Source: Sordariomycetes sp. S80-01Y
Taxonomy: Eukaryota; Ascomycota; Sordariomycetes
Direction of reading: 5' to 3'
NCBI GenBank assembly: GCA_037042185.1
Contig: JAXQJY010000020.1
Coordinates: 248,001 to 312,000, forward strand
Length of the DNA stretch: 64,000 bases
Shown here: one piece after another, positions 1 to 59,874 of the stretch
Layout of the letters: each line of letters begins with the position of its first letter
Numbering within the stretch: the stretch's first letter is position 1
The notes under the pieces: model-generated
Told to the model about the DNA's origin: nothing
What the model saw: only the letters and a program-made list of their open reading frames with translations
The model's database searches: none
Translations under genes and position numbers: made by a program

Positions 1-2068
1 AGAAGATTTCTCTCGGTATCTGGTCAAAATGATAATAAGCAAGTATGTTGAGCAAGTCCGTTGCATCTTTGCTCCTGGCCGAGTGCTTGTGGAGATACTC
101 TAAAGAGACATCGAATGCTGAGTAGACAGCTTTTATGATGTCAGAGTCCTTTTGAGTCCTTTTGCCGTTCTCCACGTCTCTATCTTGGCTTGTTTCTTGG
201 ACTATGTCCCTCTCTCGATCATTAATACCGTCGATCTGGGTCTGGGATGCTCGTCGTTGGCGCCAGTCTTTTCTAGCTTCCTCGTAAATACCCAGGTAGT
301 TTCGGATATCACAAACACCGCGGTAGATACAGGTGCCAGCTTGGATGAGCGCAATGGCGAGACAGCCGAGCATTCTGGCTATCCCCATGCCCGAGTCCTT
401 GGTACTGCCGTCCCATGGTCGAGGAATCTGTGCCTTTGTGAGCAACAACTGCAGTGCTTCATTATCTTTCAGGCCCTTGAGCTCGAGATGCCCCAAAGTT
501 CCTATCTGGCGGAAGTCAGGATTTCTAGTTGTGATGACGATGTGAGCGACGTCACTCATGGGGAAGAGGCTGGTCAAATCCAGAGATGGTTCATCGGCAT
601 TATCAATGATCAGGAGCCATGGGCTTGTAAGCTGATCAAGGAAATGTCTGCCGGCCCTCTCAGTTGGCTCCAGTTCAGCCAGTTCACCGATCTGCGAAAA
701 GGAATCGCTGATGGTCTTCGGCGACGCGGCGCGTATTGTGAAAACAGCAGTATAGCTGAACCAAGCGAGTCAGTAGTGAAGAATAAGCTAATCGCAGTTG
801 CGGGTACACCATACCGATGTTTGTGATGGCTAGCAAAGTTAGAGCAGAGCTCGGTTTTTCCAGAACCGCCCATGCCGTATATCACAAATGACTTCCTCCC
901 TGGTGAAGTTCTCGTTGAGCCGCCTGGTAGTAAGGCTGCTTTGAGGCTCTCCAACATATCCTCGCGTCCAATAAAGTGAGTTGTAGCCTCCTTGGGTAGG
1001 TGCAGGTGGCGGTTGTTCACGGTGTTGGAAGACCGAAAAGGTACTTCCAAATGAACATCAAACCCGAAGCCCCCCAGTTCCCAAGCCTCTCCAGCTCTTC
1101 TCTCTTGAAGGGCTATATCCGCCTGATTCCAACGATGGGCAATAATTTGAGGTGCTTTCTCACAGTAGTATTGCAGGGAAGCTAGGGCAGTTCGATAGTC
1201 TGAGGAGTGCATGGACGCGAATTTGACCATGTTTGGGTGCGATGCATGTATTCCAGCTTTTTCCGCATTGTCGACGTTCGGAGCGGCTGATTCGTAGGTA
1301 ACAATATAATCTGAATGACCTCCAAGGCTGGTTGGAAGCCCTTCCCAAAAGTAGAACATGTGAAACTGCCTAGCCAGAGGCGAAAATTCGGTATCTACGG
1401 ACTGAGGTACTTGAGCGTGCCCATGTCCAACAGATCGGAACTGTTCGGCCGCGTGGAAGAGCGTCCGACGTTTTTCGCCTTTTTGTCGAGCGAGCCTCTC
1501 CAGGGCGAGCCAGTTCGACTGATTGGCTTTTCCGTGAGGCGTTCCGAAGAAGAAAATCGCAAAGGTCGAGATGAATTGATCCCACAAGGGGACGACTTTC
1601 GGTGCAGTGCGTGTAGAAGAATATATCAAGCTTTTCTTAACGAGAACGCCGCCGAGTCCATGGCATACGAAGATTATAGGGCGCCTGACGCATCCCGCGA
1701 GCTGTCGATCCGCTCGTAGCTGCTGGACGAGACTTTCTGCAAGCCTCTGTACGTTGTCTGCAGCATCATCGGCGAAAAAAGAAGCGACGGGCGTATCGTA
1801 GCTATATGAGACGATTCTGCATATCTTAATTTGCTGCGGAAGTAGCTCCTGGAGCCAGTTGATACCGGTCTCGGGGTGTGTCCACGCAGTGGAGGAGTCC
1901 TCGTAAGCGTCGTGCACGGCGACAATGCTGGAACTCAAGTTAGATAAGTTCGGCTACTTGCAGGCCTCGAAGTAGCAAGAGAGTGCCCTAAACTTACTCG
2001 ACAAGCTGGTCTTCACGACCCGCGATCTGAGCAGGGTCTGGTTCGTGGAGAACAGAGAAACCAGGCAT
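1..2068 (-). CDS. NLR: SesB-like lipase domain + NB-ARC (3' end beyond window)
   Basis: Fungal NLR-type receptor gene, cut by the left window edge. Exons read 2068-1998, 1933-815 and 755 to the edge, with introns 1934-1997 (GTAAGT donor) and 756-814. The start ATG at 2068 gives a short leader that runs in frame into the SIVAVHDAYED strand typical of SesB-like alpha/beta hydrolase domains (about residues 25-300). The NB-ARC follows: P-loop GMGGSGKTEL near residue 375, Walker B LLIIDNADEP and the IVITTRNPDF strand after the second intron. The reading frame stays open to position 1, so the C-terminal repeats lie outside. The usual GHSLGG nucleophile elbow reads CHGLGG here, so the catalytic serine is replaced by glycine. 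By family analogy this is a cytosolic incompatibility or immune receptor. Splice sites are inferred by eye; the 1933 acceptor has an in-frame alternative 6 nt away. Confidence 0.88.
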
Positions 2069-5374: not shown

Positions 5375-6476
5375 ATGGGCTACAGAAGCGAAGATACCGC
5401 TGGTATCATAGAGCTTTTTCGGCCCACCGAGGAGAAGCCTGAAATCGAGTAAGCCAAAATTCGATGATAGTAAAGTGTGCAGGACTCATCTGTGCAGTAT
5501 AGTGGCGGTCCATGGTCTCAATGGAGATTCGCGAAAGACATGGACCTCGAAAGACAGTGGCATCTGCTGGCTGAGCGATAAGAACTTTCTCCCCAGGTAC
5601 ATCAAGAATGCTCGCGTGCTTTCCTGGGGGTATAATGCCAGCTTCACCTCCCTCAAGGGAACCGTGCCCTCTAAAGACCGAATTCACCACCATGCGCAGA
5701 CGTTGGTGGCCAATCTTTGTGCAGAGCGCATGGTTAGTGGCTCCTCTCTTACGGGATACAACTGACGAACAAAACAAAAAAGCTATCCGGCACCGCGGGT
5801 AAGCCCATTATCTTCCTCTGTCACTCCTTGGGGGGGATCATTGTGAAGAGGGTGCGTCCACGCCAGCTCTGTGCGTGGGGTTGAGCATGAGTTCTGACCA
5901 TCATGACAGGCGCTATCATACTCCCAGTTGAGGACCGGACATAGAATCTCTCATCAACACGACATATTCACCTGCACCTACGGGGTACTCTTCTTTGGGA
6001 CGCCGCACCTTGGGTCATCCAAAGCGACCTGGCTGCAGTATCTCACGAGGATGGCAGAAGCCGCCACACCTAAAGCATTCAGTGTGACCGAGTCCAGCTT
6101 AATCAAGGCTCTCGCGGAGGAGTCGGAGACGCTGCAGAACATCGCCGACAACTTCGTCCCCATCATGAAGAATTTCCGCATCTGCTTCTTCTGGGAGCAG
6201 GAGCAGACTGACCTCAAGCTCCTGGGTAAAGACTACATTGTCACCAATGACAGTGCGGCGCCCTTGTTCGATGATACGGAGCGATCCGGTATAGCCAGCA
6301 GCCACTCTGGCATAGTGAAGTTCGGAGATCCTTCAGCACCGGGGTTCCGGACCGTCATTAGCATCATCGCCCGGTACTGCCAGGAAGCACCTCGAGCCAC
6401 AGCGCTGAGGAAGGCTCGTGAGGCCGTGGCGCTCAGGCTGGAGCGGGAGCAGGTAGCTGAAAGTCTGATGATATAA
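5375..6476 (+). CDS. Stand-alone SesB-like alpha/beta hydrolase (lipase-type)
   Basis: Exons 5375-5448, 5498-5732, 5783-5851 and 5910-6476 join in frame. The short first exon runs into IVAVHGLNGDSRKTW, the signature first strand of the SesB-like family. The nucleophile elbow is CHSLGG, so the serine is present, followed by the family strand GVLFFGTPHLGSS and the conserved YIVTNDSAAP segment. The domain ends near residue 300 and a stop follows at once, with no NACHT/NB-ARC, so this is either a free effector-type enzyme or a receptor cut after its first domain. In fungi such domains occur alone and at the N termini of NLRs and are thought to be executioners or lipid hydrolases. Two NLRs in this window (1-2068 and 25419-29918) carry the same domain type. 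Confidence 0.88.
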
Positions 6477-17670: not shown

Positions 17671-18066
17671 GCCTTTTAATACACCCAGGATGGACAAAAG
17701 AATCGAGCACTCTTCACGCACATATGTATAATGTCCAGCGTTCGATTTTATTTGTACACCACTTGATACACTAAGTCTTGATACACTTCTTCCTAGCACG
17801 CCGTGCCTGGGGACGCTGTGTCAATGTATTATGTCGTAGTGTGCCGTGCCTCGGTATGCTGTGTGCTGTGTGTCTCGTTGTGCTTATGTTGATATTTGAT
17901 TTGTCTGAAACAACCCCTAGTATTCAGCGGACAGCAACCATTGACACATTGACAACAATTTATACACACCTCTGCCGTACTCCGGCTAAGCAGCCATATC
18001 TTGGTTACGAATGACGTTGCCAAATATTGACCAGATGACAGGAAGACCGTATTTTGCTTCTCGTCA

Positions 18067-20280
18067 TTGCCTTGGTCTGAGATGCAGAGCCATCACATGT
18101 TGTCCCCAAACGACTTCAGCGGAGTGCTACTCCTAGCATTCGGCGTGACCATCTTTATCTACTCATATTCCATTTTGAAAAGATACCGACGGAGACCTCA
18201 GCAGAGTCCCTCACACAATGTGTGTGCGAGCTCCGGCAAGCGAGAAGCGGCCTCTACTCCTCTCGAAATCCAACTGCCGAAGTCGACTGGCGACGACCAA
18301 TATCGAAGGCTATTTTTCAAGCTGCACAACGTTGAGGAACACCCCGAAGTGTTGACAGAAGGTCGGGATCTCTTGATATCTTTGCTTTCGGAAGCAATTT
18401 CGGCTGCACAATCGGAACGCCGACAGTATATCTTTGCCATTGATCGTTTCACCAAGGAGGAATTGTTCTCCCACGTCCACAAGGCCCATGAACTAGTCGG
18501 AGAGGAGTATAACCGATATGTTGAGGGTCGGGAAGCAGGTGATGAGCGATTGATGGCTACAGACCGACATCAGGCAGCCAAGGTACTCACGGCTCTGGCG
18601 CCACTGAAGTTGGTGGACGGTGCCTGGCTTGGTCGTATTCACCAAGTTACCACTCCATTCAATCTTCGACCGATCACGAAGCAAGCTTGGCAGGTACTTG
18701 CAGAGGAATTGGGAGATGGGAACCTTGATCTGAACCATGTTCATCTCTACAATAAGCTCTTGCGCGAGGTAGGGGTGCATCTCCCAGCCCCCTATGAGCG
18801 AGACTTTATCGATCACTCCAATGGCATGGACAACGAAAACGTCTGGAGAGCTGCCGTGACGCAGCTGCTTATCTCACTTTTTCCGCAAGATTTTCTACCC
18901 GAGATACTGGGATATAGCCTGCACTTCGAAGGCCTGAGCATGGAGACCATGGTCTTGTCTCGGGAACTCCAAGAGCTCGAACTCGACGCCCAATACTTTT
19001 TGCTACATGTGTCCATTGACAACGCACATTCCGGCCATGCCATGATGACGGCTCATACAGTGGTGGAGTACATGTCTCATGTCACACAGAGGGAATCACC
19101 GGCCATCGCAACGACAACGTGGCGACGCATCCAAGCTGGATATGCGCTATCCGCCCACCAATGCAACAGCATCAACGTTAAAAAGAACTTCATCACCACA
19201 CCGAACCCCATGGGCACTCCCACCTCTAGTCGATACGATGCAGACATTGTACGAATGCTGGTGGCTAAGGCTGCTGTAGCTCAAAAGACGCACAGCGCGT
19301 GTCGTGGCCGGATTGGGGGCAAGCCACTGGTCCACTGGCTCGATCCAGAGGCTCTCAAATCAGAGGTCCGAACAGTCCAGGAGCTGAGCAATGCATATCC
19401 CTGGGTTATCAAAGGCTGTCCGCGACAAAGCAGACTGATACGGGAAGTCAGCCGTGGAGGGAAGATGTTTGGGGCATTTACTTTGAAAGAAACAAAGCTA
19501 CTGCAGGACTGGATCCTTTCTCTGGGGCCCAACCCACATGAAGCAGAGGCATACTGGCATTTTACCATGAGGCCCCAGGAAAGTCGGCAACCTACGGCCC
19601 CGCTCTATCTGGTCAAGTTCGACAGCCTCCAGCGGCCGGACTGCCCCCCGCTATATACTTATGTGCATATTTGCGATAGGGCGCTCGATCTGGACCTTTC
19701 CCAAGCGGACTGGGCCAATTTATCAAGTCTATGGTTTGCTCATCTGTCTCTGTTGGAATGCTGGGTTGCAATCCCATCTCGAGCGGCCACAGACATCGGA
19801 GCTGCCGTGATCCGTATTCTCCGGGCGCAGTATAGCCTCAGCTGCGAAGAAGATGGGGTCTCTGGGATGGATGAGATCGAGCGAAGCAGCCCCCCCGATC
19901 TGGTTGCCATCGGCCTCGAAGTTTCGCGTCGCAAGGGCCTTGTCCCTCCCCCCAGTTCGCTGGCGGATGTACTGTCGCGGTGGCCGTGTTCATCAGCGGA
20001 GCGTTTGGCGAGTATATCACGGAGCCCGGTGCAAAACGCTGGAGTCCTTCTCGGGATGACCGGTGCCTTTCTCCATTTGCAACGGGCAGTTCTGCACTCA
20101 CCGGAAGCGCTCTGCGAAGAAAGTAGGACAGTCTTGGATGGAATCATTGACCGTGAGATGCAAGGTCTCCAATCTGCGTGCGAGCTGATTGAAGGCGACG
20201 CGATGAAAGGGTGGCAGTTGAACAATGGCTATCAGATGGCCGAAGAGATGATTAGGGAGGCCGTAACGCCGCCTTTATAG
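18067..20280 (+). CDS. Membrane-anchored heme-oxygenase-like diiron protein (iron-containing redox enzyme)
   Basis: Single-exon gene of 737 codons. A hydrophobic anchor spans about residues 17-36 (FSGVLLLAFGVTIFIYSYS). The middle part matches the fold of iron-containing redox enzymes (HDO type, Haem_oxygenas_2). Candidate diiron ligands fall in LYNKLLREVG (Glu near 234), YSLHFEGLSMET (His/Glu near 286-288) and DAQYFLLHVSIDNAHSGHA (Asp/His, about 307-325). This three-helix E...H/E...D...DxxH pattern is the family hallmark, known from UndA, SznF, BesC and CADD. The 400-residue C-terminal part is not recognised. HDO enzymes do oxidative C-C cleavage or N-oxygenation; the reaction here is unknown. 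It lies beside two other predicted non-heme iron enzymes, and its coding density and lack of stops suggest function. ATG 18082 is an alternative start. Confidence 0.75.
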   Translation: MPWSEMQSHHMLSPNDFSGVLLLAFGVTIFIYSYSILKRYRRRPQQSPSHNVCASSGKREAASTPLEIQLPKSTGDDQYRRLFFKLHNVEEHPEVLTEGRDLLISLLSEAISAAQSERRQYIFAIDRFTKEELFSHVHKAHELVGEEYNRYVEGREAGDERLMATDRHQAAKVLTALAPLKLVDGAWLGRIHQVTTPFNLRPITKQAWQVLAEELGDGNLDLNHVHLYNKLLREVGVHLPAPYERDFIDHSNGMDNENVWRAAVTQLLISLFPQDFLPEILGYSLHFEGLSMETMVLSRELQELELDAQYFLLHVSIDNAHSGHAMMTAHTVVEYMSHVTQRESPAIATTTWRRIQAGYALSAHQCNSINVKKNFITTPNPMGTPTSSRYDADIVRMLVAKAAVAQKTHSACRGRIGGKPLVHWLDPEALKSEVRTVQELSNAYPWVIKGCPRQSRLIREVSRGGKMFGAFTLKETKLLQDWILSLGPNPHEAEAYWHFTMRPQESRQPTAPLYLVKFDSLQRPDCPPLYTYVHICDRALDLDLSQADWANLSSLWFAHLSLLECWVAIPSRAATDIGAAVIRILRAQYSLSCEEDGVSGMDEIERSSPPDLVAIGLEVSRRKGLVPPPSSLADVLSRWPCSSAERLASISRSPVQNAGVLLGMTGAFLHLQRAVLHSPEALCEESRTVLDGIIDREMQGLQSACELIEGDAMKGWQLNNGYQMAEEMIREAVTPPL

Positions 20281-25418: not shown

Positions 25419-28400
25419 TTAGACGAATCTCCGTCGCTCTTCTAGAGTGTGCGAGTCGTCTAAGCATCGCATACCATGTGTCCAACAGATAGCACAAATT
25501 ACGACCATCCTAACACATGCCCTGCAAGTGTACTGCTTTGAGTTGACGGGAATGGTAATCGTGCAGACTTCACACCATGTTGCGTGGTATTCGAAGGGAA
25601 CCGCCTCGTATCTAGTAGGTCCTGGATCGTCCCGTATAGCACTGTTAGTAGAAGTGCGGGTCTTCAACAACTGCACGATCGCATTCTCTTCGTCGTTTTC
25701 GCAACCTATTCGAGCCCATCCGAGCAGCGATGTGTTTGCAAGGTTATTGCTGCTGGTTATCTTCGTGCCATTTTTTAACAGAAGATCAACAACGTCGTAA
25801 TGGCGGTTCCTCACTGCTGCATCGAGAGGAGTGTTGCCATGTAAGTCTGCTCGCGTGGTATCGGCCTTGCCTTGTCTGAGTAAGGTCTCAACCACGGCGA
25901 CGTGTCCGCGTCGAGAGGCTTCCGCTATCGCAGTGCGGCCTAGATTGTCTGTCACGTTGCTATCTGCTCCCTTTCCGATGAGAAGTCGGACTATTGCTTC
26001 GTGTCCTTCCAATGAGGCTTCTTTGAGCGGATTGCCTTGGTTAACATTAGCTCCCCTTTCGATAAGAAGTCGGGCTGTTGCTTCGTGGCCTTCTAATAAG
26101 GCCCATTTGAGTGGATTGCCTCGGTTAATATCTGCTCCCCTTTCGATGAGAAGTCGGGCTGTTGCTTCGTGTCCTTCCCATGAGGCTTCTTTGAGCGGAT
26201 TGCCTTGGTTAACATTAGCTCCCTCTTCGATAAGAAGTCGGGCTGTTGCTTCGTGACCGTTACTTGAGGCCGATTCGAGCGGATTGCCTCGGCTAATATC
26301 AGCTCCCGTTTCGATGAGAAGTCGGGCTATTGCTTCGTGGCCGTTAAATGAGGCCGATTCGAGTGGATTCCCTCGGTTAACATCAGCTCCCTTTTCGACA
26401 AGCAGTCGGGCTGTTGCTTCGTGGCCGTTAAGTGAGGCCGATTTGAGTGGGTTGCCTCGGTTAACATCAGCTCCCTTTTCGACAAGAAGTCGGGCTATTG
26501 CTTTGTAGCGTTTCAATAAGGCCCATTGAAGCGAACTGCCTCGGTTAATATCAGCTCCCTTTTCGATGAGAAGTCGGGCTGTTGCTTCGTGGCCATTCGA
26601 CGCCGCTCTGGTAAGTGGGTCCCATGTTGTGCCATCGCGCTCATTGATTGGCTGTTGATACCCAATCAACTTCAACACCATTTGCGTGTGGCCTTGTGCC
26701 GCGGCCCAAGACAGTGGTGTATAGTCTTTGTATGCATATCGCCATGCTGGTTTGCTCGCAACAGGCTCAAGCCCATCAAACAAGTCAGCGCCGACGTAGA
26801 TGCCTGCTAGAGACGCCAAAAGAACGTTCAAAGCCTCCTGACGGCCATTCGCAGCTGCGGCAAGTGCTGGGAACTTGTGCCTGCCTGCTCTTTCCGCCGT
26901 TCGATGTCCAACGTCGCCGAGTTGGAGGAATACCTTTATAAGTTCGGCATGGCCCTCGGACGACAGCACGTACAGAAGATCCGCATCTTCTTGATAAATG
27001 CTTTGTCTGCCATGGTCTTGGGAAGTCAAAACATAGCGAGCCAAAACATAATCAGACAGAGGAAAGGTCGAAAGGAACTCGGTTTGCGGACAGGCACCTG
27101 CTGCAGCTTCGGCGTGGCCCAGGACGTGATTGACGGCGTAATCCAGAAATTTGTCCTTCGTTGTTAACTCAACCACAGAATGTCGTGACGCTGCGTTCAG
27201 CCGGTACCTCCAATATGCTATGTATGACTGCTGAAGCGTTGCGTGGCTTAAACCCACCATGTTGACCGCGAGTTCTGGCCATATTTCCCCAAGACCTTGC
27301 TCTTTCAGTAAGTAGTCTCGAATAGACTCGTGTATAAGCTGTACCGACCCACGCTCCGTGATCTGAGCAAGACCTTTCGAGGAGCTGATGACAAACTTGT
27401 GAGTGCGGTCCTGCGCACTCTGCCACGTCTCGCTTGACGGGAAGTCTTCATCTTCTACTAGCTTTTGCGAAGAAAGCCCTGCCCAGACTGCCTTTCTGTA
27501 TTCGAATGGCGTCAGACGTCTTTTCGAAAATAGTAGCCACGTCATACTAAGCCTGGTGGTTGCGTTTTCAATTACATCGCCCGTTCCTTGTCCGAGCGCC
27601 TGTCTGAACAGCCCGCGAAGGGTCTTGGGCACTTCTTCGAGTCTCTTCTTCATAACAAATCCAGCACTGAGACCCTCCTTGTTGAGGATTTCAACGACGA
27701 GCACAACCCACAAAAATACGCCTGACGCCTTCTTGAGGACTTTGTCGACGATATTGGGGTCGTCCACTTGCAGCCTTTCCCCGATATACGTTCTTAGGTC
27801 TTTTGTGTGGTCCGGATTGTCATCAAGGACGAGCTCCCGGCTTCTTTGTATGCGTATTGCTGGATAGTGACGACTGGAAAAGCAGATGCTCAGGTTAACA
27901 CGCTTGTCCAGCGCGGATTTGACCAGTTCCCCAAAGTAAAGGACCATATCCGCAACTTCCTCCTGCTCACACTCGTCAAGGGCATCGATGAACCAGATAA
28001 TCGAGCGGCCCTTAAGGCCTAGCACCGAACTTCGAAGCAGACCCTGAAGCTCAACGAGGGAACAGGTATCTCGATTTCGGCTAAGCAGCGAATTATTATC
28101 GAAAACTGCTTGAAGATCCTTGAACCGATCAAGAAGCTGCCAAAGGAGCGATTGATACATGCCGAGCACGGATTTCTCCAGATCGCTACCTCGGGCATTG
28201 AAAAAGAACGAGGCAACGAGAGTCGACCCTACGGCACTTTCGTGTACGGCATGAAAGGCGAACTTCATAAGTGTTGACTTTCCCGCGCCAGGATTCCCCT
28301 TGATCCATAACATTCGATGCTCCTCGGGAATATAGTCAGAATCCTGCCATTGGCGAAGCGTAGGGTGGTTCAAGATCCAAAAATAGGTGTTTCCATGAGG

Positions 28401-29918
28401 GGGTTTGACAGTAGCCAGTCGTTCATCGAGTTGTGGGAATTTAAGAGACTTCATAAGCCGTTCCCGTCTCTCTACTGTATCTTTGCTGACTTTTGCGATA
28501 ACATGAGCATATTTATATTCCTTGAGGTGACATTGTTACGTACCCTCTGCACCTTGAACGTGCTGTGGCAGACGTGCTACCGCTCGCCGACATATGTCGC
28601 CAAGCTTCGCCTTAATAACGTTGTCTTCGTTCCGTCCAAATTTGACAAGATCCGAGTGCGTCGCAGAAATAGGGAGCACATGCTCCAGGTGTCTCTCCCC
28701 TTCTTTGTAGTGCGTGGCAGACTGCTTAGAGACGAGAAACTCCTTTGTACCTGACATTTCCAATCTGTCATCAACCTGCGATATGAACTCTGGTTAGCGT
28801 GTTCAATGGAAGGATTTGTGCCTTCTCCTCGGTGCAGACTAACCTGTACAGCGGTAGGCGACTGTTTGGTTTCATAAAAACAGAAGACTTCCGATCTCAT
28901 CTTCCCCAGAACTGGGCCGAACCTTTTCCTCTGTTCGTCAAGGACCAGGGAGCTGGTACGACACAAACTAGCCAGCATGCCTGAATTGGGACCTTGCCCG
29001 ACCATTGGAAGCAAGGATTTGATATCCATGCCGCCATTGGGCACCCCGAAGAACGCGAAACCGTAAAGCCTTCCCAGAAGTACTTGATGGTCCGGCAAAT
29101 TCGAATCGCTAAGTGCTATGACGGCCTACTTTGGTCAGCTGCATACCTCTACGTCAATCAGAATACCTGCCTGTTTGATGATGAGTCCGCCCAGGCTGTG
29201 CCCTATCAACACCATGGGCATCTTGAGCTTAATGGTGCTTAAGTGCTGATGTAGCTCAGTAGCTAGATCGCCTATGTGCTGAAGGTTGTCACTATCGTAC
29301 AGCCTCGAGTCATAGCCATAGATCATGACCCGAGCCATCGGCTTTCCAGAGTCGACTGCGCACACATCTACGCCCAGGCTATCACGAAGCCACATGTAAC
29401 CGTCCGTTTTGCTCTTGAACGATCCGAAGGCATGTCCCCCGAGTCCACATACTGCAACAATACTGGCAGAGTCAGCGGGATAGTCAAACATCGGGCGGGA
29501 AGCTGACATACTCAACAAGATGATCTTCCTTTGGAGGGCAGAAAAGTGCTGTCAAGCCATGAAAGTGGCTATCGCAGGTGAGTATAGCGAGATTTGATCC
29601 AGGTGTCGAAGAGGGTTCGAGGCTAGCGCTTATGGTTGGGGGAAACTTGACATCCCTTGGACAGTCGACTGTGGCTGTCTGCCGATTGCCTTGGACGTCT
29701 GCGACGAGTGACTTGACTTCTAATCTTGCGGACGAATTGCCGGTGGCCCCCAGAAACTGCTCCAGTTCAGATTGGCCCCATTTAAGCGGTACACCTTGGA
29801 TACGATACGTCCAGGTCTTCGTCGGCTGAGCATCGCGATTTTGACTGTCTTTGCTTGGAACTTGGGAAGAAAGTTTAGGTCTTTGAGGAATAGACAAAAG
29901 ATCGCGGAAACTCTTCAT
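25419..29918 (-). CDS. NLR: N-terminal domain, SesB-like lipase, NACHT, ankyrin repeats, ZZ-like finger
   Basis: Large receptor of about 1422 residues. Exons: 29918-29512, 29462-29167, 29115-28844, 28775-28544, 28480-25419. The first 140 residues are a fungal module (YRIQGVPLKWGQSELEQFLG) often placed before SesB-like domains. The lipase follows with CGLGGHAFGSF, the intact elbow IGHSLGGLIIK and FAFFGVPNGG. The NACHT has P-loop WIKGNPGAGKSTLMKF and Walker B IIWFIDALDEC. Eight near-identical 28-residue ankyrin-type units follow (DNA about 25950-26625), then ordinary ankyrin repeats. The C-terminus is a compact Cys/His segment starting WCEVCTITIPVNSKQYTCRAC that resembles a ZZ zinc finger. By family, a cytosolic self/non-self receptor whose repeats sense a ligand and whose lipase domain acts. 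No breaks seen. Confidence 0.92.
25950..26625 (-). repeat. Eight 84-bp tandem repeats coding 28-residue ankyrin-type units
   Basis: Units follow the pattern PL-x-x-AS-x-x-GHEATARLLIEKGADINRGN, each 28 residues (84 bp) rather than the usual 33. They differ mainly at the two or three residues after PL and just before GHE, and at the E/I/V choices of the second helix. Nucleotide identity between units is visibly high, as expected for repeats that exchange by unequal recombination. Confidence 0.9.
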
Positions 29919-42878: not shown

Positions 42879-43303
42879 ACCAAGCTAGTGTCCGAGCCTA
42901 GGTCTTGCTCGCTAGCAATCGCCCAGCGTCTTAAAGTTGGTGCTCGGTTACGCAGGGAAGCTAGGCACTGAGCTGAGTGCTGTTGTTTGTCTTGTTTTAT
43001 GAGGAGGATTTCCCGGGCTTTGTATTCAAGCCTCCGCATTGTTTGTTCATGAGGTATAGAGAGATATCTGGGAGGGTTAATGGTGAGAGTTTTGCTGCTT
43101 GGCTGGGCAGCCGTGGTGGGTAAAGCCGTGGCTTTTCAAGGCTTCATCCATAGTTTCCACGTTTTTGCTCTTAGCAGACCGCTACTAAAGTATGTACGGA
43201 TTTCACAGCTCTTCATCACAAGTACATAGTCGGTTCACTTGCAGCTATGGCTGGCTGGGTTCAACACAAATGATACCACCCATTCTAGGTCTTGTGGATC
43301 CAA

Positions 43304-43399
43304 GCGTTCCAATATCAATGCCACAAGGAATACCGCATAGGTGAAACTTGTGGTCTCAAATTGGTTTGCGACGTTGGCTACAAGGATCGGCCATGCAAG
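43304..43399 (+). repeat. Duplicated fragment of the small Cys-rich gene at 59470
   Basis: About 95 bp starting GCGTTCCAATATCAATGCCA are nearly identical (about 3 mismatches) to 59521-59616 inside a small protein gene. Similarity stops sharply on both sides. The copy keeps the frame for FQYQCHKEYRIGETCGLKL but has no start or tail of its own. Confidence 0.88.
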
Positions 43400-44307: not shown

Positions 44308-47300
44308 CTACTCACGAAATGACAGGCCCTGCAGCCAGTTCGACAACTCAACACCGATAGAATCTGTACTAGGGATGGCAAAGCAAGGATGTGCCTCGCA
44401 AGTCCCTGCCGTGCGGGGCACACGCCCATCTATCTCGTAGTCAATGTAGCAGTCGGCACAAAGGTTCACGTCGATGCAGACCCTGCACACAAATCTTGCC
44501 ATACCGAAACGTAGCTGCTTGTGACAGCCGTCACAAATGATCCTTCCCGAATTCAGATCAAAGAAACGGAGCTCCTGTACGAAGGCGACGGTAGCGTCAC
44601 CATCCTTCCCAATATATAGAAGTATCCGGCCAAGGAGACCGAGGAGAGATGAACAGATCGCACTATGCTTCTTGCAAAGGGCGCTGAGGGACGTGATCAC
44701 GTCATCGACTTGAACCGTATTTCTTGTGGCAGGACTCGTGATCCTTCGCTGTCGGGTGCCTCGCTCTAGGAGTTCTTGGTAGCGGCGGCGGTACACGTCG
44801 CAGAGGCTATGAACAACATCCATGCTAGGAGCATCCCCGGTGCATCCTAGTACCCGGACATACATCCGCTCCGCTTCGTCGAGCTTTCCTTCTTCCTTGC
44901 GTATATCACCAATGAGCTTTACGAGGAAGACTGTAGATTCGTGTTCCGAGCCGAACAGATGCTCAAAGTCGGATACAGTGCGCCAGCATAGCTCTGCCCC
45001 ATTTTCCACAGGCGCCTTATTGAATTGTTGTATAAATGCAACAAGAGACAGCTTGGTAGAGCTCGCACACGCAATAAGTGAGTGCGGATGATGTGGGCCG
45101 AGAAGCGAAACCATGTGAGCGTACGCGATCTGCGAGAGAGGCACGGCTTCTTCGAGCTTGCCTTGAACGCCTAGCGTATTGGCCAGGTTATGCATGGCCG
45201 AGATAGTGGATGGATGTTCCTCACCCAGAATCCGCCTCATCTTGTCGAGAACCTTCTTTTTTATCCCCGCCGCCTCTTCTAGCTTGCCTTGATCGCCTAG
45301 CGTATTGGCTAGGTTATTCATGGCCGAGATAGTGGATGGATGTTCCTCACCCAGGATCCGCCTCATCTTATCGACTACCTCCTTTTTTATCCCCGCCGCC
45401 TCTTCTAGCTTGCCTTGATCGCCTAGCGTATTGGCTTGGTTATTCATGGCCGAGATAGTGGCTGGATGTTCCTCACCCAGGGTTCGCCTCCTCTTATCGA
45501 GAACTTCCTTTTGCATCCCCGCCGCCTCTTCTAGCTTGCCTTGATCGCCTAGCGTATTGGCTAGGTTATTTATGGCCGAGATAGTGGATGGGTGTTCCTC
45601 ACCCAGTATCCGCCTCCTCTTATTGAGGACCTCGTTTTGCATCCCCGCCGCCTCTTCTAGCTTGCCTTGATTACGGAGCACAGCAGCCAGGTTATGCATG
45701 GCCGAGATAGTGGATGGATGTTCCTCACCCAGAATCCGCCTCATCTTGTCGAGAACCTTCTTTTTTATCCCCGCCGCCTCTTCTAGCTTGCCTTGATCGC
45801 TTAGCGCATTGGCTAGGTTACTCATGGCCGAGATAGTGGATGGATGTTCCTCACCCAGGATTCGCCTCCTCTTATTAAGAGCCTCCTTTTTTATCCCCGC
45901 CGCCTCTTCTAGCTTGCCTTGATGGCTTAGCGTATTGGCTAGGTTACTCATGGCCGAGATAGTGTCTGGATGTTCCTCACCCAGGATCCGCCTCGTCTTG
46001 TCGAGAACCTCCTTTTGCATCCCCGCCGCCTGTTTTAGCTTGCCTTGATCGCCTAGCGTGGCAGCTAGGTTACTCATGGCCGAGATAGTGGATGGATGTT
46101 CCTCACCCAGAATCCGCCTCATCTTGTCGAGAACCTTCTTTTTTATCCCCGCCGCCTCTTCTATCTTGCCTTGATCGCCTAGCGTATTGGCTAGGTTATT
46201 CATGGCCGTGATAGTGGATAGATGTTCCTCACCCAGGATCCGCCTCATCTTATCGATAACCTCCTTTTGCATCCCCGCCGCCTGTTTTAGCTTGCCTAGA
46301 CCGCCTAGCGTGGCAGCTAGGTTACTTATGGCCAAGATAGTGGCTGGATGTTCCACACCCAGGATCCGCCTCATCTTATCGATAACCTCCTTTTGCATCC
46401 CCGCCGCCTCTTCTAGCTTGCCTTGATTGTCTAGCGTATTGGCCAGGTTATTCATGGCCGAGATAGTGAATGTATGTTCCTCACCCAGGATTCGCCTCAT
46501 CTTTTCGAGAACCTCGGTTCGCATCCCAGCCGCCTCTTCTAGCTTGCCCTGATTATTTAGCGTGGCAGCCAGGCTGCTCATGGCCGAGATAGTGTCTAGA
46601 TGTTCCTCGCCGTGTAGACTGAGCATTCTTGACTGTACCAGTCTTTGCACGCTAGATGCTTCAGCCAATCGGCCCACGTCTGAAAGAAAATCCCCATGTG
46701 ATCCCAAAAAGAGCAGACTGAGTCCGTCATCCGATCTGTAGGTCTGAAGTTTGGATGCGGCCTCGAAATTTGCCATGATATGGGGAACAAGTCGCTGCCG
46801 AGCCACAGGCGTCGTGTTGCCCTTCTGTATCGTGTCTCGCAAAAGCATTAACGACCGGAGCATATAAAAGTTTTCGTCTTCGGTTGAAAGTCTATCAAAC
46901 GCCCAAGCATGTACAAGCTTATGCATACTGTAGCTTCGGTCTGATCGCTCCTGAAGAAGTCCATAAGAAAGCAGGACTCTGAAGCATTCCTCAATGACGT
47001 ATGTACTTGCTTCTGCACCTTTCAAAACTCCGTCGTACCATATAAACGTTTGGTCGTCCTTCATAGCTTGCTTGCATGGGCAGTGCTCTGCTTCCGGAGC
47101 AAGAAGCTCGATAAATATGTCGGAGAAGTTAACAAATCCAAGCAGTGTTAGTAGTCTCGACGCATCTGTACTTCCACCTTGAGCAATGGCACTAAATGTA
47201 CTTTCCCACGTAGTAAGAACGCTCTCCCCGTATTGATTGACCAGGCGGCTGGGCTTTTGCGAAAGTATCTCTCTCCGCCGCTGGCGATACTCTTCGAGGT

Positions 47301-48243
47301 ACCCGCTCAGGTTCCCTTTCAGTCTTGCAGTCTGGGATACGTACGTGCCAGACAAGCTCACGGCGAGCGCAAGGCAGCCAAGCTCTTTGACAATCTCCAT
47401 CGAGGCCACCTCGTTGGGGCTCGTGGATTCTAGCTTGGCGCATGCCATGAAGAGCGTCCTCGCCTGCTCGTCTTCCATTTCTGCCACCTCCACCGCTTCA
47501 GTTACCATTTCAGCGGCGCGACCACTGCGGGTGATAATAATCACATCGACATGAGGGACGTCTGGGATGAAGTGATTGATGTCGATAGGGTGTTCAGATG
47601 CGGGTTCATCGATGTCATCAGCGCCGTCGAAAACAAAGACCCAGCGGCCACTTCGCCCGTTGAACCAGTTCTTGACTGCGAGAACGGCATCTTCGGCATC
47701 AATTTCTTCATCGGACGCAGGGATGTGGAAAAGAAGCTTAGAGATGGCCATGAAACCAAGCTCAATCGTTTGCTTCTGACCAGCGTCGATCCAAAAACCT
47801 GCGTTGTACTCGCATCGATGTCGCAGGTAGTAGTTCAGGACGAGCTGCGTCTTGCCGGCCCCGCCCAGGCCCCACACAACAGCAATTCGAGGGCCCGGGC
47901 TATCGGCGTCCGTCCTTTCGCGATGTAGTTGCTCGTATAGCTTATCGCGCAGGCTTGGGCGCGGTACGAAGGTAGAGACAACGCGGAGGGAGGAGTAGGC
48001 GTAGTGGCCGCTATAGTCGCGAGGAGACGCGAATCGAGGCAACGCCGATTGATCTGGGGGTATTAGCTCGCGGTCGGCAGAAGCAGGGTAAATAAATGTG
48101 AGCGCACTGTAATTATGGACGTCCCCGAGTACAGCATGAGCTTGGTCGCTGATTTGGACATTATTGAAGTGGTGGCCTGTGCGACGTTCCATGGTCCGTC
48201 GGTTGGTGAGAGAGCGCAATTTGCAAGTTCGCTCATCAGGCAT
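44308..48243 (-). CDS. NLR: amyloid motif, NB-ARC, TPR (kinesin-light-chain type), ZZ finger
   Basis: Single long frame of about 1311 residues. The first 25 residues are followed by FNNVQISDQAHAVLGDVHN (about residues 26-44), a 19-residue motif that recurs twice in the adjacent HeLo gene. The NB-ARC has P-loop VWGLGGAGKTQLVLNY, Walker B GRWVFVFDGADD and the IIITRSG strand. Twelve 42-residue TPR units of consensus LGEEHPSTISAMNNLANT with GDQGKLEEAAG follow, then diverged repeats. The C-terminal ZZ-type finger contains ICDGCHKQLRFGMARFVCRV and LCADCYIDYE, plus His residues. By analogy with NWD2 of Podospora, ligand binding to the TPR array would trigger oligomerisation and template amyloid folding of the effector. 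An in-frame ATG at 48318 would add 25 hydrophobic residues; I prefer 48243, because the short N terminus suits such receptors. Confidence 0.92.
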   Translation of the reverse strand: MPDERTCKLRSLTNRRTMERRTGHHFNNVQISDQAHAVLGDVHNYSALTFIYPASADRELIPPDQSALPRFASPRDYSGHYAYSSLRVVSTFVPRPSLRDKLYEQLHRERTDADSPGPRIAVVWGLGGAGKTQLVLNYYLRHRCEYNAGFWIDAGQKQTIELGFMAISKLLFHIPASDEEIDAEDAVLAVKNWFNGRSGRWVFVFDGADDIDEPASEHPIDINHFIPDVPHVDVIIITRSGRAAEMVTEAVEVAEMEDEQARTLFMACAKLESTSPNEVASMEIVKELGCLALAVSLSGTYVSQTARLKGNLSGYLEEYRQRRREILSQKPSRLVNQYGESVLTTWESTFSAIAQGGSTDASRLLTLLGFVNFSDIFIELLAPEAEHCPCKQAMKDDQTFIWYDGVLKGAEASTYVIEECFRVLLSYGLLQERSDRSYSMHKLVHAWAFDRLSTEDENFYMLRSLMLLRDTIQKGNTTPVARQRLVPHIMANFEAASKLQTYRSDDGLSLLFLGSHGDFLSDVGRLAEASSVQRLVQSRMLSLHGEEHLDTISAMSSLAATLNNQGKLEEAAGMRTEVLEKMRRILGEEHTFTISAMNNLANTLDNQGKLEEAAGMQKEVIDKMRRILGVEHPATILAISNLAATLGGLGKLKQAAGMQKEVIDKMRRILGEEHLSTITAMNNLANTLGDQGKIEEAAGIKKKVLDKMRRILGEEHPSTISAMSNLAATLGDQGKLKQAAGMQKEVLDKTRRILGEEHPDTISAMSNLANTLSHQGKLEEAAGIKKEALNKRRRILGEEHPSTISAMSNLANALSDQGKLEEAAGIKKKVLDKMRRILGEEHPSTISAMHNLAAVLRNQGKLEEAAGMQNEVLNKRRRILGEEHPSTISAINNLANTLGDQGKLEEAAGMQKEVLDKRRRTLGEEHPATISAMNNQANTLGDQGKLEEAAGIKKEVVDKMRRILGEEHPSTISAMNNLANTLGDQGKLEEAAGIKKKVLDKMRRILGEEHPSTISAMHNLANTLGVQGKLEEAVPLSQIAYAHMVSLLGPHHPHSLIACASSTKLSLVAFIQQFNKAPVENGAELCWRTVSDFEHLFGSEHESTVFLVKLIGDIRKEEGKLDEAERMYVRVLGCTGDAPSMDVVHSLCDVYRRRYQELLERGTRQRRITSPATRNTVQVDDVITSLSALCKKHSAICSSLLGLLGRILLYIGKDGDATVAFVQELRFFDLNSGRIICDGCHKQLRFGMARFVCRVCIDVNLCADCYIDYEIDGRVPRTAGTCEAHPCFAIPSTDSIGVELSNWLQGLSFRE
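45105..46615 (-). repeat. Twelve 126-bp tandem repeats coding 42-residue TPR units
   Basis: Each unit encodes one kinesin-light-chain-type TPR. Units are strikingly alike at nucleotide level, for instance the repeated GGATGTTCCTCACCCAG and CTTGCCTTGATCGCCTAG words on the plus strand. Differences cluster at a few codons, such as NLAAT/NLANT, KLEEA/KLKQA, GIKKK/GMQKE. This indicates recent amplification or ongoing concerted exchange. Confidence 0.93.
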
Positions 48244-48318
48244 AGAAATGATGGTTGCGGACAGGACAAGAAGCGTGGGGATAGTCAGATATACCAAGAA
48301 ATAATGGTATGCAGCCAC

Positions 48319-48640
48319 TATTCAGCCCAACCAGCAGCTGTGCAGGTTGGGTCAGCCACCTCATTGCCCGCGCTGCATGTTGGTTCAACCCATTCGTGGC
48401 AGTTCAGCCAAGGCATACACCTTGCTGCAGTTCCACAGCCACCACAGCCACCACAGCCACCACAGCCACCACAGCCATTGTCGCGTCCTCACCAACTTCA
48501 CTTGCAAACGAGCAGCCATCAAACGAATAAATACAGACGTGACACCTTCATCAAGATCTCCATTCCATTTTCCTTCGCCTTCAACTTCTCCTTCACAAAA
48601 GTCTGCCGGAACCGTTGGCCCTTGCTACACTACGCCTAGG
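48319..48640. promoter_or_regulatory. Shared bidirectional promoter region with 9-bp repeats
   Basis: About 320-400 bp separate the divergent NLR and HeLo starts, so both promoters must lie here. It contains about five copies of CCACAGCCA at 48433-48477 on the plus strand. Whether the repeats bind a factor is unknown. Confidence 0.5.
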
Positions 48641-49513
48641 ATGCCTGATCCGATATCTCTCGTCACAGCCATCACTGGCATTCCGGGCATATTCAAGTCT
48701 TGTGTGGATTGTTTCCAGTATGTCCGACTCGGTCAGCGCTTCGGGAAGGACTATGGCGTCTGCCTAGCGAAGCTAGAAGCCGCGCATATTCGCCTGACAC
48801 GTTGGGGGGAGCCCCTCGGTCTTCTACAGGATAAAGTCGAAATCCAAGGTCCATTTACTGATGAGGATATCATCCGAGCATATGAATTGCTTGCCCTGAT
48901 CAAGGCTACTTTTGAAGAAGCGCAAGAGGCCGCAGCCAAGTATGCTAATGATAGGAGAAAGAAGGGCAAAGACAAGGAACTGGAACTCATCGACGAGGGG
49001 CAGATGGGGTCAGGAAGCTCCATAAAACTTCTCGTAACATCGCTAAAGTCCGTTTCCAAGGAGCGGCAAAGGAAGCTCAGCTTACCACGGAAGATCACCT
49101 GGGCATTGTACGGGAAGGACAGCTTCGACTCCTTGATCGGAGATATTGTTACGCTCACCAGCAATCTTGTGGAGCTTTTCCCATCAAACGAGCGGAGGAT
49201 GAAAGAACTCTGCCAAGAGGAAGTCAACAGCCTGAGCGATGAGTGTATCCCTGAACTCGGCAGGGTACTCCAGAATGATGATGAGATGCTCCCTAATACG
49301 GACGACGCGATGCTGAGCGAGACGATCTGCGCCTATGTTGAGTCACGCCGACTCCAGTTTCGCAACATTAACATTAGCGGCCAAGCAACCACCCACTTGG
49401 GTGACACACACGGCTTTGGATCTGGCGTGAAGCCAGGCAACGTCAGTGTTGATGGCATGACTATTAGTGGGAGTGCTTACACTCACGCAGGCCATGTTTT
49501 TCATGGAAAGTAA
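48641..49513 (+). CDS. HET-S-type HeLo-domain protein with two C-terminal amyloid motifs
   Basis: Intron-less 290-residue protein, almost the length of Podospora HET-S (289). The N-terminal HeLo signature reads GIFKSCVDCFQYVRLGQRFG followed by KLEAAHIRLTRWGEPLGL, matching the HET-S start (CVDCFEYVQLGR..., RLSRWGEA). The helical domain runs to about residue 235, ending in the SLIGDIVTLTSNLVELFPSN segment. Then FRNINISGQATTHLGDTHG (about 240-258) and a looser second copy, MTISGSAYTHAGHVFHGK (about 273-290), end the protein. HeLo domains are membrane-targeting cell-death executors activated when their C-terminal motif adopts an amyloid fold. The matching motif in the divergent NLR makes this its probable effector. 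No breaks seen. The frame is open upstream to 48347, but ATG 48641 restores the conserved N terminus. Confidence 0.92.
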   Translation: MPDPISLVTAITGIPGIFKSCVDCFQYVRLGQRFGKDYGVCLAKLEAAHIRLTRWGEPLGLLQDKVEIQGPFTDEDIIRAYELLALIKATFEEAQEAAAKYANDRRKKGKDKELELIDEGQMGSGSSIKLLVTSLKSVSKERQRKLSLPRKITWALYGKDSFDSLIGDIVTLTSNLVELFPSNERRMKELCQEEVNSLSDECIPELGRVLQNDDEMLPNTDDAMLSETICAYVESRRLQFRNINISGQATTHLGDTHGFGSGVKPGNVSVDGMTISGSAYTHAGHVFHGK

Positions 49514-50673
49514 GAGGCATGAGGATACAACCGGGGTTTACATTAAGAGGACGGGTGGCCTTTTCGCAGAGAGCTCGGGCCTAACTTGCGAGCCTATCAT
49601 GGGGTAGCCGTGGGCGGTCTGGAAGCGAGCGGCAAGTGGTCGACGACAACAGAAAACTTTCGGCTCTCTAGACGAATTGAGCAATTGCTCGCATGACCAA
49701 CGGGCCTTCGTGGTGTCGGATGTTCTGACTTCGACATACGGGTTCGAAATTGCCGGTCCTTTGACGCGTTAGTCGTCGGCGACACGGAAGGATGGTTGGA
49801 GTGCGGCACAGGCTGGACAGATTGTGATTAGGAAGAAAGCGGAACATACTATACTGAGTGAGGCGAGGCTGCCTATGTTCTGTTGATTGAGACAATCAGC
49901 GAGGTGCAGCAATAATGCTTCGGCGTTGCATTGCCCTTGCAAATATGATCGGCCTGAGATTAAAGCCTGGTACCCGCGCATTTCGTCCATTCAGGTTATA
50001 AAAAAGCTGATGAAAGATGAAGAAAATCGAGCAAAATTGCGAGCTGAGTGTTTTGCCCATTCGTAGAGGATCGTTGTTGTACTGATGACTTCAACCGACT
50101 CAACCGGTCCAATCAGCCAGGGTCTGAGCACTCTCGTATCGCCCAGCCCCGAGCTGATGCAAGCTCGCAAGACCCAAAGCTTGGCGCTTCGGATGCTATT
50201 ATCAAAATTGACGGGTCTAACAAGTCCTGAAGCATCGTCTGACAGCTGGGTCCACTTATCTTCTATGCACACTGTGTTCTCACAACCCCAAGGGACGGGT
50301 TAGGCGGTGTGACGAATGGGCGGCTAATGTCGTACCCTGGCGGTCGCCACCATTGTGCAAGGCAGTGAGCGAATAGCCTCAGCCGACGTGCCGCTTGCCG
50401 CGAAAGTTGTTCGCCAATGAGCGTGAACCAACCCCTCATCAAACGGTGAAACCCCCACTATCATTGTATGTATTCAAGCCACACTATGTATCGGAAGATA
50501 CGTAAGGATGAAGTTCGCCATAATCGCCGCGTCGTGTTCTGTCGCTTCCCATTCCCCAACGCTACGTCTTTGAAAATTCACCCTCTTCAGCAAACACGCC
50601 ACATCCTCCGTCGTTCTCTTGTTTTTAGGTTCTTGGGGCAGCCATCCGAAGTACAGTACGTTCACACTACGCA
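49514..50673. other. Intergenic / unrecognised
   Basis: 1.15 kb after the HeLo gene. Short frames only; the last part may belong to the retroelement fossil that follows. Confidence 0.4.
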
Positions 50674-50985
50674 ATGGTCGCAACAGAGCAACAGATATGC
50701 CGGGCCGAAAGAGCAGTATTTGAGTTGCGTCAAGGCCGAGGGTCTGCTCGCATTTACGCCCAAAAATTTGACACCGAGACACGAGCTCTTCGGGATGCGG
50801 GGTGGACAGATGCGCCTCTTATGGCCTTTTTTTACAAAGGTCTGAAGGAAGATGTGAAAGACCAGTTGTGTATGAAAGACCGGCCAGAAACTTTGGAAGA
50901 GTATGTGAAGATGGCCGTGAGGATTGACGACAGGAATCATTTACGGCGAGCCGAGAAACGAAGAACATCCCGCGAACAACCATAA
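50674..50985 (+). mobile_element. LTR-retrotransposon gag-like fossil (Ty3/Gypsy type)
   Basis: A short segment resembles the retrotransposon gag domain (EQQICRAERAVFELRQG, APLMAFFYKGLKEDVKDQL, YVKMAVRIDDRNHLR). No protease, polymerase, integrase or LTR was recognised around it, so it is an old fragment rather than a whole element. Confidence 0.65.
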
Positions 50986-59469: not shown

Positions 59470-59874
59470 ATGTGTTTCTACAACCAAATCGTGTGGACCT
59501 GCGGGTTCTGGAAGTGGTCAGCGTTCCAATATCAATGCCACAAGGAATACCGCATAGGTGAAACATGTGGTCTTAAATTGGTTTGCGACGTTGACTACAA
59601 GGATCGGCCATGCAAGATATGCCAAGATCTTGCAAAAAAGCAACGAAGGGCGGCAAAGATGCAGGTTGATATTGCGAGATGGCTATACGAGGGCAATCGA
59701 CCTGCAACCGTTCATGTGACCGAAGGAGAGCTTTCGAAGGTTCGAAAAGAAATCATGAGCCTCAACAAGATTCACGATCGAACTCGAACTCGAACCCTCC
59801 CTCCGATCCGCGATCTCCAAAGTCCAGTCGGTGCACCATGGTTCGAGCTTGCTTTTGGCAACACAGTATGTTGA
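59470..59874 (+). CDS. Small cysteine-rich protein of unknown function
   Basis: 134 codons. The N-terminal half holds regularly spaced cysteines (MCFYNQIVWTCGFWKW, YQCHKEYRIGETCG, RPCKICQDL), which could bind zinc. A basic helix (KKQRRAAKMQVDIARWL) and a Ser/Arg-rich tail follow. The family occurs in many ascomycetes and is of unknown role. No signal peptide is apparent, so it is probably intracellular. A 95-bp piece of it is duplicated at 43304-43399. Confidence 0.75.
   Translation: MCFYNQIVWTCGFWKWSAFQYQCHKEYRIGETCGLKLVCDVDYKDRPCKICQDLAKKQRRAAKMQVDIARWLYEGNRPATVHVTEGELSKVRKEIMSLNKIHDRTRTRTLPPIRDLQSPVGAPWFELAFGNTVC

Follow-up and report, generated by a model that had tools for sequence, protein, structure and literature searches.

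The window analysed here, a stretch of 64,000 nucleotides from Sordariomycetes sp. S80-01Y (contig JAXQJY010000020.1, positions 248,001 to 312,000), contains an NLR gene and a HeLo gene which are divergent neighbours with 448 bp between them. Both open reading frames predicted by the first-pass annotation of this DNA were found fully open in the ORF listing. The pair contains three copies of a 21-residue motif, called r0, r1 and r2 and numbered here by HRAM position. The features are as follows (positions are those of the window):

44308 to 48192, minus strand: NLR gene, coding for 1,294 aa when read from the ATG at 48192 (start choice uncertain)
44362 to 44535, minus strand: C-terminal Cys-rich, ZZ-like finger of the NLR, below the Pfam cut-off
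45100 to 46611, minus strand: TPR array of the NLR, 12 highly alike in-register units of 42 aa (126 bp)
47323 to 47904, minus strand: NB-ARC domain, residues 98-291 of the NLR, Walker A GLGGAGKT at residue 109
48112 to 48174, minus strand: r0, the single HRAM-type copy at the NLR N terminus, HRAM positions 3-23
48193 to 48640, no strand: divergent intergenic region of 448 bp, in which a 9-bp repeat occurs five times (48433-48477)
48641 to 49513, plus strand: HeLo gene, coding for 290 aa if it is unspliced; two motif copies lie at the C terminus of the protein
48659 to 49240, plus strand: HeLo domain (PF14479), residues 7-200
49352 to 49414, plus strand: r1, first effector copy at the HeLo C terminus, HRAM positions 3-23
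49442 to 49504, plus strand: r2, second effector copy at the HeLo C terminus, HRAM positions 3-23

The minus-strand reading frame is open from 48321 to 44308, and translation of the NLR is likely to start at the ATG at 48192, which has an ACCATGG context; the alternative start is another in-frame ATG, upstream of this one. From the N terminus the protein consists of r0, the NB-ARC domain, the 12 TPR units and the Cys-rich finger, and no Pfam domain was found in its first 70 aa. The NB-ARC domain is supported by both the profile (PF00931, E=5.1e-06, 26.4 bits with a cut-off of 23.5) and the Walker A motif, and the TPR array by a TPR_10 match in Pfam (E=2.1e-133) and by a tandem repeat at the DNA level (11.6 copies of 126 bp, 87% matches). 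When all 12 units were compared, including the divergent last one, variability peaked at unit positions 6, 12, 19, 20 and 31 (entropy 1.5-1.9 bits). At positions 12, 19, 20 and 31 there were residue differences in 44-48 of the 66 unit pairs and silent differences in 0-4, and at position 15 there were 32 silent and no replacement differences; these are plain difference counts. The pattern is compatible with the report by Dyrka et al. (PMC4986451) of positive selection at TPR positions which lie on the concave face in a Podospora NLR. With regard to the C terminus, the ZZ finger is weaker than the first-pass annotation proposed: the region is Cys-rich and ZZ-like, with three CxxC pairs recognised by eye, but the match to PF00569 (18.1 bits, 18.0 in a second run, E=0.0025) stays below the cut-off of 21.4.

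The HeLo domain was identified with 141.5 bits against a cut-off of 23.2 (PF14479, E=4e-41), and the protein had three PDB matches at E<=1, all of them HeLo structures of the small s protein of Podospora (2wvo, 2wvn and 2wvq, the best being 2wvo with E=1.7e-25). Its N terminus is hydrophobic, residues 4-22 being the highest-scoring 19-residue stretch of the protein (Kyte-Doolittle 1.39). Searches for relatives in virus and prokaryote contig collections gave 1 and 25 pattern matches respectively, none of which was confirmed, as expected there. In the unspliced reading r2 is followed by just two residues and the stop codon (four residues past HRAM position 21). The last five residues of the protein (49496-49510) are the same five with which a published PUASM motif instance begins (PMC9815663), a likeness which may be chance at this length. 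The stop codon coincides in part with a donor-like GTAAGA at 49510. For an intron starting there six acceptors come into question, among them CAG at 49569 with no branch-point consensus, GAG at 49592 with a branch-point consensus 12 bases before the intron end, and TAG at 49607 (98-base intron), where a branch-point-like sequence precedes the end by 27 bases. Because the distance for the TAG acceptor is a workable one, a longer, spliced tail is possible, although the unspliced model of 290 aa was retained as the simpler one; the motif copies are identical in both models.

The two peptides which had been proposed to share a motif are both present, and their residues F, N, I-S, Q-A, L-G-D and H are identical in register between r0 and r1. 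In total, r0 and r1 are identical in 10 of 21 columns (48%), and r0 and r2 in 5 of 21 (24%). A recent duplication was considered as the source of the likeness between r0 and r1, and was ruled out because 7 of the 10 shared residues differ in codon; the two copies have 31 of 63 bases in common.

When compared with the published HRAM rules, the three copies all contain Gly19, the superfamily residue which is perfectly conserved in the published set (PMC4518210), and all have hydrophobic residues at positions 5, 8, 10 and 18. For the five HRAM hydrophobic positions (5, 8, 10, 16 and 18) this gives 5/5 for r0 if Ala16 is counted, and 4/5 for both r1 and r2, which have Thr16; these positions are described as held "in general", with Thr named for position 10 only (PMC4518210). 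Position 6, one of the three salt-bridge positions of HET-s (PMC4518210), is R in r1 and D in r2, and thus of opposite charge. The coupling of residues 8 and 12 reported for NLR motifs (PMC4518210) is seen as V8 with D12 in r0, and I8 with G12 in r1, an effector copy, fits as well. In addition, r0 has no Lys or Glu and has four His, following the reported trend for NLR motifs, with two Asp retained. The HeLo protein also has the layout of the two-repeat HeLo type (at most 310 aa, with a loop of 6-18 aa), as it combines a length of 290 aa with r1, r2 and a loop of nine residues, three of them Gly; loops of 6-18 residues were found in 154 of the 155 published HRAM proteins (PMC4518210). An adjacent NLR with one N-terminal copy, reported for 98 of those 155 cases (PMC4518210), is present here 448 bp away, and position 3 of its single r0 is residue 7 counted from the ATG.

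The copies depart from the usual pattern at two positions. Position 15 is H, T and Y in r0, r1 and r2 respectively, where Arg or Lys is an HRAM preference and not a defining rule (PMC4518210), and position 16 is A, T and T. No match of the HeLo tail to the HET-s(218-289) profile PF11558 was reported at E<=10, a range in which the HMMER filters drop most weak matches, and its sole Pfam match at that threshold was to an unrelated family (E=0.053); PF11558 is matched by just 38 of the 155 published proteins (PMC4518210). The published class residues are N3 for HRAM1, Q3 for HRAM2, Q18 for HRAM4 and Q16 for HRAM5 (PMC4518210). None of these is present in any of the copies, which have H, L and V at position 3 and L, L and A at position 18, and the HRAM3 class residue His3 is found in r0 only, being absent from r1 and r2. 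The motif thus keeps the general HRAM pattern and fits no HRAM1-5 class residue consistently. It is most likely an HRAM outlier or a member of an undescribed subfamily, judged from these residue patterns, and the label "private" given to it in the first-pass annotation is plausible. A bolder reading is that the three copies represent a sixth HRAM subfamily, marked by the shared I10-S11 and A14, a small residue at position 16 and no class residue at position 3. Such a subfamily would have its own seeding specificity, with the finger as an extra sensor on an NB-ARC-TPR receptor, and the pair would form a parallel, insulated amyloid death pathway; we put this forward tentatively, and consider it rather unlikely. 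The PP motif (FxGx(x)NxGLQLxGxNxGxL) was tried as well, and was not recognised in a by-eye comparison with the published consensus (PMC3321046).

The locus contains a gene pair with the domains described and with three motif copies in HRAM register, in which the NLR has one copy and the effector two, in agreement with the NWD2/HET-S type of pair proposed for it. On this sequence evidence the locus very probably encodes an HRAM-type amyloid signalling pair, consisting of a receptor and an executor. By analogy with NWD2/HET-S and FNT1/HELLF, a cue would be sensed by the TPR array of the NLR, and perhaps also by the C-terminal finger, upon which the NLR would oligomerise through its NB-ARC domain. 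This would bring several r0 motifs together into a beta-solenoid amyloid nucleus. The nucleus could then serve as a template from which the tail of the adjacent HeLo protein, with r1 and r2, takes up its fold. The HeLo domain would be expected to open and to insert its N-terminal hydrophobic segment into the membrane, killing the cell. Amyloid formation by r0, r1 and r2 themselves is likewise predicted from these two known pairs.

The shared motif could instead be a non-amyloid docking peptide, with the HeLo protein recruited by peptide pairing or in a folded complex and without any self-templating fold. The amyloid nature of the motif is itself inferred, and both Thr16 and the lack of Arg/Lys15 are unusual for an HRAM. 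No solenoid is seen in the predicted models, which were made by AlphaFold from single sequences and have such low confidence (mean pLDDT 49.5 for the HeLo tail and 35.6 for the whole HeLo protein) that they are uninformative. A further point against the main reading is that no solved amyloid was found among the matches of the HeLo tail or of a three-copy profile, each of which had one unrelated match at E<=10. However, one receptor copy with two effector copies, Gly19, the hydrophobic spacing and the opposite charges at position 6 together reproduce the published HRAM arrangement, and we consider docking without amyloid to be improbable.

A pair which is of the HRAM type in structure could also be non-functional, either as an inactive relic or because the HeLo protein has lost its toxicity, as in the [Het-s] variant. 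The HeLo protein has D, R and L at positions 23, 33 and 86, none of which equals the HET-S residue, and D23 is the residue of the non-toxic HET-s; the HET-S residues were inferred from the variants D23A/P33H and E86K (PMC3531502), with positions equated through the gap-free first alignment block. However, the HeLo protein lacks the proline at position 33 which disables HET-s, and it retains F25, a residue whose change to Ser inactivates HET-S (PMC3531502). On toxicity, the sequence of the HeLo domain therefore points in both directions. Further points against a non-functional pair are that both reading frames are fully open and that the TPR units are in register over 12 copies; loss of function is in our view very improbable.

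The likeness of the copies was also assessed against shuffled sequences, by the top BLOSUM62 score of any ungapped stretch of 21 residues. Between the 80-aa head of the NLR and the 70-aa tail of the HeLo protein this score was 53, a value reached in none of 5,000 shuffles in which both stretches were permuted and which gave 41 at most, and for the whole NLR against the whole HeLo protein none of 1,000 HeLo shuffles reached 53, with one shuffle at 51. For r1 and r2, the best internal score of the HeLo tail was 31, reached by 1 of 2,000 shuffles. A loose HRAM pattern had 25 matches in the 457 six-frame ORFs of the window, and is weak evidence on its own because the mean after shuffling was 17.4. 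A tighter pattern had four matches in the window with 0.61 expected, three of the four being r0, r1 and r2, although this pattern and one allowing Thr16 were both chosen after the copies had been seen. Out of 20,000 shuffles, 311 had at least one match to the Thr16-allowing pattern in the 60-aa NLR head, 11 had at least two in the HeLo tail of 60 aa, and none had both together; without Thr at position 16 the pattern matches once in the NLR head and not in the HeLo tail. That the likeness reflects chance or sequence bias between unrelated neighbouring genes, as the abundance of loose-pattern matches might suggest, is extremely improbable given the shuffling results for r0 and r1, for head and tail together, and for the tighter pattern, the latter two with post hoc patterns.

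The surroundings of the pair were covered by a Pfam scan of 9 of the 36 listed ORFs of at least 170 aa, besides the NLR and HeLo genes. A second NLR at 25419-28535 (minus strand) combines an NPHP3_N-type NTPase with ankyrin repeats, its NACHT match being below the Pfam cut-off. Its ankyrin units are alike (84 bp, 7.5 copies, 82% matches), and it has a Cys-rich end with three CxxC pairs by eye, where all Pfam finger matches are below cut-off. The ORF upstream of it (28577-29125) looks hydrolase-like by eye and has no Pfam match, as does the ORF at 5907-6476 (plus strand). At the window edge (2-1953, minus strand) there is a third NLR-like gene, whose Pfam matches (alpha/beta hydrolase, AAA_16 and NB-ARC) are weak, none of them attaining the cut-off. 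A 97-bp stretch is duplicated at 43303-43399 and 59520-59616, with 97% identity over a distance of 16 kb, and the first copy lies past the 3' end of the NLR gene, at a distance of about 0.9 kb. Other observations were a short ORF at 50629-50985 (plus strand), which by eye resembles a retrotransposon gag fragment, and a 749-aa stop-to-stop ORF at 18031-20280 (plus strand) with an iron-containing redox enzyme domain (PF14518, E=6.7e-30).

The pair is a further example of a well-described kind of system rather than a system of a new kind. Novelty may lie in the variant of the motif and in its occurrence together with a C-terminal finger. No description of HRAM, NB-ARC-TPR and ZZ finger in one protein was found in the main texts of the mostly open-access literature, which is weak evidence. 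If the reading as an HRAM pair is true, the motif would be a natural HRAM variant in which core position 16 can be Thr or Ala and position 3 carries no consistent class residue. Such a variant would help in asking how side chains determine the seeding barriers between amyloids of the same fold. The receptor, with NB-ARC, highly alike TPR units and a C-terminal finger, would likewise be a test case for sensor rebuilding.

Finally, the pair can be placed beside the systems already described. NWD2 and HET-S of Podospora anserina (HRAM1) are likewise divergent neighbours, with two copies in a HeLo effector and one in the NLR (PMC3321046, PMC3531502, PMC4518210), although NWD2 is a NACHT-WD protein whereas the NLR here is NB-ARC-TPR, and the class residue N3 of NWD2/HET-S is absent here. 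The TPR repeats in place of WD repeats, which the first-pass annotation had presented as a distinction of this pair, already have precedents. FNT1 of P. anserina (HRAM5) is likewise an NB-ARC-TPR NLR with an N-terminal r0, encoded beside a cell-death protein, HELLF, with C-terminal r1 and r2 (PMC7885112, PMC7889193). In contrast to the protein described here, which has a true HeLo domain (PF14479), HELLF has a HeLo-like domain; its motif class is marked by Gln16 (PMC4518210), where the copies here have Ala, Thr and Thr; and the descriptions of FNT1 consulted (PMC7885112, PMC7889193) mention no finger, whereas the NLR here has a Cys-rich one at its C terminus. In the Arthroderma pairs, too, the partner of the HeLo protein is an adjacent NB-ARC-TPR NLR and the two share a terminal motif, although theirs is the pseudopalindromic PP motif centred on Gln (PMC3321046), which was not seen here by eye. 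Nor is a finger on a fungal NLR without precedent, as zinc fingers, ZZ included, have been published for these proteins (PMC12258605): in Sordariales they were found in 57 NLRs, 52 being C-terminal and 17 ZZ, and 16 treble-clef fingers adjoin canonical repeats. The finger described here is likewise C-terminal, and its score is below the ZZ cut-off. In the same survey, 87 (56%) of the Sordariales NLRs with amyloid N termini had NB-ARC and 68 (44%) T-NACHT domains, and TPR was the commonest C-terminal partner of NB-ARC (PMC12258605), the combination also found in the receptor of this pair.
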